A stretch of DNA of 36,249 nucleotides from Bacillus sp. AFS055030 (lineage in GTDB: Bacteria; Bacillota; Bacilli; Bacillales; Bacillaceae_G): positions 1 through 36,249 of the forward strand of contig NZ_NUGT01000014.1 of the NCBI RefSeq assembly GCF_002574545.1, given 5' to 3'. The translations under genes were made by a program, and so were the position numbers. Positions 18,046-19,656 of this stretch are shown here, one piece after another. How positions within the stretch are numbered: the first letter of the stretch is position 1; the number at the start of each line of letters is the position of its first letter. The notes beneath the pieces are model-generated. The model did not search any database. It had not been told where the DNA came from and saw only the letters and a list, made by a program, of their open reading frames with translations.

Positions 18046-18080
18046 AGCATGGAGTCTGAAAATAGATTCTATGCTTTTTT
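18046..18080 (+). terminator. Terminator of the lic/chb operon
   Basis: AGCATGGAGTCT pairs with AGATTCTATGCT (two G-U pairs) around GAAAAT, followed by a T run. Confidence 0.8.
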
Positions 18081-18120
18081 GGTATATATAGTTAATTAGA
18101 ATTTTGGAAAAAAATATAAG

Positions 18121-18165
18121 ATGAAATAGGGGTAGTTTTACACTATAATGAATATTAATAATATT
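18121..18165 (+). promoter_or_regulatory. Promoter and candidate operator of the receptor gene
   Basis: A perfect TATAAT (18144-18149) has ATGAAA, a partial -35, at 17-bp spacing (18121-18126). AATATTAATAATATT (18151-18165), a 15-bp palindrome with one central base, covers the expected start site and could be an autoregulatory operator. AT-rich palindromes arise easily by chance, so the operator is tentative. Confidence 0.4.
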
Positions 18166-18190: not shown

Positions 18191-19450
18191 ATGAAAATTG
18201 GAAAAATTATTAATTACCATCGAAAAAAAAAAAAGATGACACAAGAGCAACTATGTGATGGAATTTGTTCAATTTCTCATTTAAGTAAGATTGAGAACAA
18301 CTCAAAAGAGGTTAATATCGAAACTTTAAACTTATTGTGTATGAAGTTAAGTATATCAGTTGAAGATGAAAAAAATAAAATTAATCATATTAAAATAAAA
18401 CTACAGGAATTCTACGACGCAATTGAACGACTGCATCATAAAAAAGCAAATACAATCTATCTAGAACTCACGAAATATAAGGAGTTTGTCCAATATACGG
18501 AATTGCTCTATTTATATGAATTATACATGTTAAGATATACTTTGTTTTTAAATCAAGTTGATCTAGCAGAGCAATTGATTGAAAAAATAGGTCAAAATAC
18601 GAAGATGTTTTCTGAGTTTGAACGATTTGTTTGGAATGTATTAAATGCAATTTTTAATCATAAACGGAATAATTTTATTAAAGCTTTAGATTTATTAGAA
18701 GAAGTAAAAGATTTAAGGAAACAGTATCGAGATGAAATAACCGAATATTATTATTTAAAATCGTTAATGCATTGTCGATTAGGACAATCTGCATTAGCAA
18801 TCTATTTCGGTAATAAAGCGCTAGAAGTTTTTAAAAAAAGGAATAATATTATTAGAATGTTAGATGTGAAAACAATATTATCAATCCATTTAACTGAAAC
18901 TGGTGAATATGAAAGAGCAGAAAATTTATTAAAAGAAATATTAGATGATGCAGAATTAATTCAAAATACAACAATAGAAGAAATGGCTTGGCATAATTTA
19001 GGTTTCTTATATGGTACTCAAAATATTTCAGAAAAAGCGTTGGAGTGTTATTATAAATCACTTGCATTAATAGAGAAATATACTGAGAGTTATTACCTTA
19101 CATTAGGAAATATTGCGACTCATTTGCTAAAGCTACAAAAAAATGAACAAGTTGTGAGTATGCTAGAAAAAGAATTAGCGTCATTCGAGGATACATCAAA
19201 ATTAGAATATGTAAAATTACGAGTTTTATATTTTGAAGCAAAAAACGAAGAGAAGGCACTAATCCGTTATTTAATGGCAGACGGGTTACCAATTATGGAG
19301 AAACACGGTAATCGAATGAAGGTTTATGAATACAGTGAACGAATTGCAGAATATTACCAAAAACAAGGCGACCCACTTTTAGCTAATAAGTATTTACAAA
19401 TCAGTTTACATCAAATGAAGAAGACACATAATACAGGAGTTCTTAGATGA
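18191..19450 (+). CDS. RNPP-type quorum-sensing regulator (HTH plus TPR; NprR/PlcR-like)
   Basis: 419-residue cytosolic receptor-regulator. Residues about 4-60 form an XRE-type helix-turn-helix (KIINYHRKKKKMTQEQL, then ISHLSKIENNSKEVNIETL). Residues about 75-415 are helical repeats of TPR type, for example ALAIYFGNKALEVFKKRNNI and EKALECYYKSLALIEKYTES. This layout and length match the Rap/NprR/PlcR/PrgX (RNPP) family, which bind re-imported oligopeptides in the TPR groove. The stop codon overlaps, as ATGA, the start of a 50-codon secreted-peptide gene, the hallmark of receptor/pheromone pairs. It is closest in layout and size to NprR, but I cannot prove orthology. Whether it activates or represses, and which genes, is not visible. 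Confidence 0.85.
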   Translation: MKIGKIINYHRKKKKMTQEQLCDGICSISHLSKIENNSKEVNIETLNLLCMKLSISVEDEKNKINHIKIKLQEFYDAIERLHHKKANTIYLELTKYKEFVQYTELLYLYELYMLRYTLFLNQVDLAEQLIEKIGQNTKMFSEFERFVWNVLNAIFNHKRNNFIKALDLLEEVKDLRKQYRDEITEYYYLKSLMHCRLGQSALAIYFGNKALEVFKKRNNIIRMLDVKTILSIHLTETGEYERAENLLKEILDDAELIQNTTIEEMAWHNLGFLYGTQNISEKALECYYKSLALIEKYTESYYLTLGNIATHLLKLQKNEQVVSMLEKELASFEDTSKLEYVKLRVLYFEAKNEEKALIRYLMADGLPIMEKHGNRMKVYEYSERIAEYYQKQGDPLLANKYLQISLHQMKKTHNTGVLR

Positions 19451-19599
19451 AAAAAAAAATTAAACTTATCACACTTTCCCTAGTCATCACAATGCTGGTG
19501 AATGTAGGAATAAATACTAATCAAAATCATCATTCGCCAAAAAATGATATTTACGCATCCAATAAAAAGGAAGATGATCCAAAACCTCCAGGAAGTTGA
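19447..19599 (+). CDS. Signalling-peptide precursor (NprX/PapR/Phr-like)
   Basis: A 50-codon gene overlapping the receptor stop by ATGA, with its own AGGAG at 19435-19439 spaced 7 nt. The product begins MKKKIKLITLSLVITMLVNV (basic N-terminus, then a hydrophobic core: a Sec signal), continues through a polar stretch to NDIYA, and ends SNKKEDDPKPPGS. IYA-S is a plausible signal-peptidase site. By analogy with NprX, PapR and Phr peptides the last five to eight residues (for example DPKPPGS) would be the mature signal, re-imported through an oligopeptide permease to bind the receptor. Size, position, signal sequence and terminal peptide all fit; the exact mature form is a guess. Confidence 0.75.
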   Translation: MKKKIKLITLSLVITMLVNVGINTNQNHHSPKNDIYASNKKEDDPKPPGS

Positions 19600-19616: not shown

Positions 19617-19656
19617 AAAAAGGGATATCTCAAAAAACGAGATATCCTTTTTTTTT
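19617..19656. terminator. Bidirectional terminator between the peptide gene and the RND gene
   Basis: GGATATCTC (19623-19631) pairs with GAGATATCC (19639-19647), with A runs before and T runs after. It serves the receptor-peptide operon on the plus strand and the convergent RND gene on the minus strand. Confidence 0.85.

Follow-up and report, generated by a model that had tools for sequence, protein, structure and literature searches.

A chromosomal NprR-like receptor gene with an overlapping propeptide gene in Gottfriedia: a probable quorum-sensing pair with its own peptide

The window, by which we mean the whole analysed stretch of 36,249 nucleotides, carries a gene for an HTH-TPR protein whose end overlaps a small open reading frame (ORF), and the locus raises the question whether the two encode a receptor and its signal, and if so which of the known peptide-sensing systems they resemble. 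The initial annotation had proposed a quorum-sensing pair of the NprR/PlcR type in which the receptor stop and the start of a 50-codon gene share ATGA, the small gene having its own AGGAG; both ORFs and the ribosome-binding site were found as described (Table 1), and the HTH and TPR assignments held as well, HTH_3 and TPR_12 both scoring above their Pfam cut-offs (48.1 bits against 30.1 for TPR_12). The propeptide has no Pfam domain above cut-off. Its N-terminus (KKKIK and a hydrophobic stretch with a best 9-residue hydropathy of 2.7) is signal-like by charge and hydropathy alone, and a signal-peptidase cut between YA and S would leave an unusually long c-region, which counts against the pair reading. 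RRNPP pairs have been defined, in the available text of PMC10075063, by a receptor of 250-500 aa with TPR and an adjacent Sec-secreted propeptide of 10-100 aa, together with receptor binding. The window receptor (419 aa) lies within this size range and matches TPR models, and the propeptide (50 aa) is within its range and overlaps the receptor gene by ATGA. We propose, with a probability of roughly 85%, that this is a quorum-sensing pair of the RRNPP type that belongs to the NprR-like branch and has a peptide of its own.

Table 1. Features of the receptor-propeptide locus (positions in the window)
Feature	Position	Strand	Remarks
Terminator-like stem	18046-18075	+	After the PTS/chbG group, before the receptor promoter
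Degenerate copy (TTTTGGAAAAA) of the TATTGGGAAAA box	18102-18112	+	At -89
Sigma-A-like promoter	18121-18149	+	Weak -35 ATGAAA, 17 nt, -10 TATAAT
NprR-like receptor gene	18191-19450	+	419 aa; N-terminal HTH (about residues 11-58), then TPR domain
AGGAG ribosome-binding site of the propeptide gene	19435-19439	+	7 nt before ATG
Propeptide gene	19447-19599	+	50 codons, 50 aa; ATGA overlap with the receptor stop
Codons of the invariant end DDPKPPGS, proposed pheromone	19573-19596	+	Mature ends (heptapeptide DDPKPPG or octapeptide) inferred
Terminator stem	19623-19647	.	Adjoins the 3' end of the convergent RND-type gene; probably bidirectional

On the 5' side the pair is preceded in the window by sleB-ypeB and then by cellobiose-type PTS genes, a family-4 glycosidase-like gene (resembling the alpha-galactosidase type, with a score below the model cut-off) and a chitin-disaccharide-deacetylase gene (chbG), and on the 3' side it faces a convergent gene for an RND-type permease (below the NCBIfam cut-offs) whose stop ends at 19655. 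The initial annotation had given the pair its own promoter and its own terminator. The promoter is plausible: the -35 is weak, and the -10 TATAAT (18144-18149) is identical in 10 of 10 aligned orthologues; consensus promoter matches are frequent in the region (21 found, 11.4 expected). As to the terminator, the stem is present, but it is probably shared with the RND-type gene, since it abuts the 3' end of that gene. Among eight of the nine other Gottfriedia orthologues (G011 was left out of this comparison), chbG lies 5' of the receptor in all eight, and the RND-type gene lies 3' of the pair in all seven whose contig reaches far enough (the contig of L040 ends before it). This makes it a chromosomal locus that has been passed on vertically.

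The six nearest named loci (receptor identity 89-95%) belong to Gottfriedia luciferensis, two strains of G. acidiceleris and three Bacillus sp. records, so the source of the window is probably a Gottfriedia as well. In a set of 13 Gottfriedia genomes (that of the window and 12 others), the receptor is found at 82% identity or more in 10, the window included, and the best matches in the other three (G001, G004 and G009) reach merely 34-36%. The alignment of receptor and small-ORF homologues that had been suggested as a check on the pair came out in its favor: the overlapping ORF of 50-51 codons is open, with the same overlap, in nine of the 10 orthologues (the window and eight others), and its end does not vary. 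In the last eight codons (DDPKPPGS) of these nine, pairwise comparison gives 52 differences in total, all of them at third positions and all synonymous (pS 0.27, pN 0), while pN/pS is 0.38 in the propeptide leader and 0.15 in the receptor; selection thus acts on the peptide end. With nine orthologues that have an open ORF, an unchanged overlap and nothing but synonymous differences in the last codons, the small ORF and the overlap are, judged from these alignments, not a chance occurrence. The back-translated DDPKPPG occurs once in each of the nine pair-bearing genomes and is absent from the remaining four, and the reversed pattern used as a control occurs in none of the 13. All nine propeptides also have MKK at the start and Gly21, so that the export signature published for NprR propeptides (two adjacent lysines, KK, and a Gly placed past the hydrophobic helix, as given in the available text of PMC9765709) is present in the window group.

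The tenth orthologue (L017:1501-2775, genome G008) is a receptor without a peptide gene; the region is shorter, the receptor end is changed, and the receptor is as constrained as its relatives (pN/pS 0.17-0.19). This loss, together with a more distant locus (L019, receptor identity 42-43%) that holds merely the fragment NKKTGHDPPGS, might be taken to mean that this lineage can do without the peptide gene or is losing it, and that the receptor is driven by another signal or is constitutive. Against such decay stands the end DDPKPPGS, which is free of amino-acid change in all nine orthologues including the window, and we give it the smallest chance of the readings considered here. The L019 fragment lies about 45 codons on, in one frame that has no usable ORF (L019:2763-3063), and by itself resembles the Gottfriedia peptide end. 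A locus of a different genus (L018, receptor identity 47%) has a 74-aa ORF (reverse strand) that overlaps the receptor end and contains three DPEDPPG units. The suggestion in the initial annotation that the peptide might be a signal with a specificity of its own has gained ground, given the conserved overlap, the invariant DDPKPPGS, its single occurrence per genome and the three-copy version in another genus.

In a maximum-likelihood tree the window group (10 rows), L018 and ten receptors in which no peptide gene is visible form a clade of 21 (support 96/91). This sister group consists of L019, L044, L045 and L095-L101; absence of a peptide gene was judged by the fixed rule described below for L019 and L095-L101 (8/8) and by three-frame reading for L044 and L045, the latter being shortened. 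Two Gottfriedia genomes (G012 and G002) each have the pair plus one orphan receptor of this sister clade, and the sister-clade receptors may possibly be listeners or orphan regulators. Homologues without a visible downstream small ORF, which the initial annotation would have held against the pair, therefore do exist, namely L017 (1 of 10) and the ten sister-clade receptors, and they are not the state of the other nine orthologues. They would speak against the simplest view of an obligate pair, and they suggest that the signal can be lost while the receptor stays useful.

That sister-clade receptors manage without a peptide gene also lends something to another explanation, by which the small ORF would encode a secreted peptide with another role (antimicrobial or surface, for example) that is co-expressed with the receptor but not sensed by it. 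The selection concentrated on the last eight codons, the short, polar and proline-rich end that resembles other putative NprR-family signals, the position directly after a TPR receptor gene in nine of 10 orthologues and the comparable genes at 89 of 133 related receptors all argue the other way, and we consider a role outside sensing unlikely. The figure of 89 of 133 NprR-like loci comes from a fixed rule for a downstream small ORF with a signal-like N-terminus (a length of 28-140 aa, a start between -60 and +90 relative to the receptor stop, a basic N-terminus, a hydropathy of at least 2.0 and a loose ribosome-binding motif). The 133 loci include one locus twice (L023 = L109, neither with a candidate), and the rule admits unlikely candidates, such as L008, L028, L133, L156, L162, L163 and L177, that were retained in all counts.

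Two or more copies of a unit of at least five residues are found in 29 of the 89 candidate propeptides; according to the available text of PMC9765709, atypically large NprR propeptides contained repeated signals in 17 of 17 cases. In 65 of the 89 candidates a proline past residue 18 is preceded, at 0-2 places, by an acidic residue; the other 24 lack this arrangement. Frequent cores of this acidic-x-P kind are EEHPKFN, SEPDHPKIV, HDDSPKIN and AEHPDPT, alongside EDDPKPPG of the window. Composition alone nearly accounts for such a pattern, which 56 of 76 non-redundant candidates show, against a shuffle mean of 48.2 and a maximum of 57. A stricter pattern, which was chosen after the peptides had been seen, gave 55 against a shuffle mean of 33.9 and a maximum of 43. 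The paired propeptides of L105-L108, L110, L111 and L114-L122 end in (H/Y)PIxPP(V/L) or, in the very short ones, in PPIxPP(V/A/I), and on their letters these ends are a second peptide style in the same branch. The genome from which the window comes (4.39 Mb, 91 contigs) has 11 receptor matches, i.e. the window receptor and ten NprR-like paralogues; among the seven paralogues L002-L008, L002 has a convincing secreted peptide gene (core GDEPIHPK) and L008 a doubtful candidate.

Three known systems invite comparison: NprR is followed by a downstream small gene, AimR-AimP has a receptor-propeptide order and size like those of the window pair, and PlcR-PapR has a similar general architecture. The best PDB sequence matches of the receptor are two NprR chains (phmmer, about 1e-17 over residues 58-408), and a profile of nine sequences finds NprR at 5e-31 and a Rap protein at 2e-13, with an engineered TPR protein higher still. 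The receptor is thus related to NprR, and this half of the NprR/PlcR assignment stands; the other half does not, as no PlcR chain is among the PDB matches. Membership of the PlcR and AimR families was considered and rejected: neither PDB sequence search returned a PlcR chain or an AimR chain, and a search against 50,697 phage records gave no match at 1e-5. The parallels to PlcR-PapR and to arbitrium systems that had been drawn from size and order are therefore architectural alone. The window locus differs from AimR-AimP in being chromosomal and syntenic, with no phage match, and the PapR motif is absent from the window peptide.

The likeness to NprR-NprX of the Bacillus cereus group lies in the HTH and TPR receptor (an N-terminal HTH is reported for NprR in the available text of PMC9765709) and in a small propeptide with KK and Gly in its export signal. 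The differences lie in the TPR part, with 23% identity to that of NprR, in key residues that are replaced, in the letters of the peptide and in the neighborhood, where NprR-NprX has a neutral protease and the window pair has the cellobiose-type PTS group and the RND-type permease. NprR of Bacillus thuringiensis (NprR_Bt) groups with L025 and L026 in the tree, in an 11-row group outside the 43-row group of the window (100/96; midpoint root). Residue roles in NprR were taken from the available text of PMC4970707 and transferred by an alignment at low identity (23%), in which positions may shift: R126, W167, H201, N306 and D309, which contact NprX, align with N121, F162, R196, S300 and L303; the stacked Y165 and R343 with N160 and K337; and Y223 and F225 of the tetramer with N218 and I220. 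Another interface could replace that of the NprR tetramer. The NprX signal SKPDIVG is absent and the window peptide ends in DDPKPPGS; placed side by side, NprX SKPDIVG and DDPKPPG have, by eye, Pro3 and Gly7 in common.

Given that NprR and Rap chains are the nearest natural relatives in the PDB, the receptor might mainly be a Rap-like regulator of Spo0F, as apo-NprR is, which the peptide would inhibit. The Spo0F contacts of NprR (D107, Y118, E188 and Y223) align, at the same low identity, with Y102, M113, I183 and N218, i.e. with Y, M, I and N, and we regard a principal role of this kind as very unlikely. With the residues for NprX contact, tetramer formation and Spo0F contact all replaced, the receptor, judged from its sequence and architecture, is NprR-like yet not NprR, and a role at Spo0F is not expected.

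For the quorum-sensing pair proposed above, we infer a course of secretion, processing, import and binding in which the propeptide would be exported by Sec, extracellular proteases would free a short peptide from its C-terminus, of which DDPKPPG and DDPKPPGS are the likeliest forms, and an oligopeptide permease would import this peptide. The peptide would then bind the TPR domain of the receptor and alter the engagement of DNA by the HTH. As for the direction of regulation and the targets, the first site of action would probably be the receptor's own promoter, with its conserved block at the -35/-10, and other genes would follow.

This block spans and precedes the -35/-10 in the window group, and its 28-nt core occurs in the genome, within three mismatches, in the window itself and nowhere else. 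A box at -89, with 0-2 mismatches, is found in nine of the 10 promoters of the window group (the window and eight others) and is missing in L017. Matches to TATTGGGAAAA with up to two mismatches number 33 in the window against 34.4 expected, so that the window copy carries no weight on its own; taken with its relatives, it is a plausible degenerate autoregulatory site. Three other elements were considered and set aside. An inverted repeat TATAAGA-N14-TTTTACA in the window promoter overlaps the -10 and has no match in three of six loci tested (L016, L018 and L019). A degenerate second box (TATTAACAATA) at -38 is 50 bp away instead of 52-53, has three mismatches, is not found in every orthologue and is not claimed here. 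A two-box operator was found in one of the 13 Gottfriedia genomes (G008), which is not that of the window.

Upstream of several relatives the motif TATTGGGAAA(A) was first noticed, and it was then tested on unseen upstream DNA of L114-L193. Of these loci, 58 have a candidate peptide gene, and 33 of the 58 contain TTGGGAAA within 400 bp upstream (in 30 dinucleotide shuffles the mean is 2.3 and the largest value 6); of the 22 without a candidate, six do (shuffle mean 0.7, largest 4). Over the same distance TTGGGAAA was present in all six paired loci of L105-L111 and in four of 10 in the window group, and was found in none of the eight orphans (L095-L101 and L019) and none of six own-genome paralogues (L003-L008). 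Convergent pairs of copies in L114-L193 are spaced 51-53 bp centre to centre in 34 of 44 cases, and the other ten pairs come from promoters with three or four copies. The arrangement TTGGGAAA-N43..46-TTTCCCAA, with N44 and N45 as the main gaps, yielded 117 sites in 23 genomes, summed over the forward counts (reversed control 0); these genomes were selected for having such promoters, and each holds at least one site by construction. The same two boxes at gaps of 13-42 gave three sites (reversed control 13) and at gaps of 47-76 one (control 1), that is, four in total at 60 other gaps against 117 at gaps 43-46. Clustering at 65% reduced 63 spacers to 41, in which the A/T content repeats about every 11 bp, periods of 9.5 to 14 exceeding all 1000 shuffles with a peak at 10.5-11.5.

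When 23 sites in 20 regions (L225-L244, from three genomes and part of a fourth) were read, 22 lay outside ORFs of more than 80 aa. A peptidase gene adjoins seven of the 23 (five S8, one M4 and one M12-like; ten flanking proteins were scanned), the N-termini of these peptidases being export-like by eye, and three other sites adjoin genes for PhoX, urocanase and FdhD. No TTGGGAAA was found in the 300 bp upstream of the two loci that the tree places beside NprR (L025 and L026), and no locus above 36% identity that could serve as a true NprR control for the operator was found among 397 genomes of the order; of four plasmid NprR-like loci, one has a single box and three have none. In the genome of the window, the distance between a TTGGGAAAATTTT site (L054, G000:C1 around 157224) and the called start of a thermolysin-type (M4) peptidase gene is 38 bp, and an NprR-like paralogue (C1:153796-155016) that is without a visible peptide gene lies about 2 kb away. 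Such single-box sites number 41 in this genome against 24 in the control, and five of the 30 that were read were upstream of a gene, so that little can be built on a single box.

In complex with NprX, NprR is reported to be a tetramer, which is believed to occupy two DNA sites simultaneously (PMC4970707, available text), and the AimR operator consists of two inverted boxes with a 25-bp spacer (PMC6458997, available text), which is comparable with the 44-45-bp spacer at other NprR-like promoters; a two-box operator would by analogy fit both. From its position, the two-box element, which is carried by many NprR-like receptor genes elsewhere in the Bacillales, is a candidate binding site of NprR-like receptors. 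The accessible part of the open literature, including PMC3325205, PMC5641580 and PMC7756075, gave no description of an NprR operator of this kind. As a tentative and rather less secure proposal, the window pair may have branched off, with one box, from an NprR-like family spread across the Bacillales. The distinctive operator of this family would consist of two TTGGGAAA boxes in inverted orientation at a distance of 52-53 bp, or five helical turns, and the A/T-rich blocks of the spacer would recur at about each helical turn, as though the DNA curved around a receptor with four heads that the peptide assembles; each lineage would have its own peptide word (in the window, DDPKPPG), and extracellular proteases would be the common output. 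If true, this would add the DNA-binding half of a switch known so far chiefly through its peptides.

NprR has been reported in 21 genera (PMC9765709, available text), and the surveys of the NprR subfamily (PMC9765709 and PMC10075063) describe candidate systems of the same kind; Gottfriedia does not appear in the main texts of these two papers, whose supplementary tables may list the pair. A literature search on quorum sensing in Gottfriedia returned, at the level of titles, nothing beyond a microbiome survey of space habitats, and searches of the accessible literature for DDPKPPG, DPKPPGS and KEDDPKPP gave nothing but a survey of tomato xylem peptides, for DPKPPGS alone. The pair would give the NprR-like branch one more signalling word, fixed in the chromosome. 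Its relatives offer an intact pair, a tandem-signal form, a constrained receptor without a peptide and an orphan clade, states in which the loss of a signal, and possibly eavesdropping, become testable; and the candidate operator in the relatives would make a regulon computable for a family for which no defined DNA targets were found in the literature searched.
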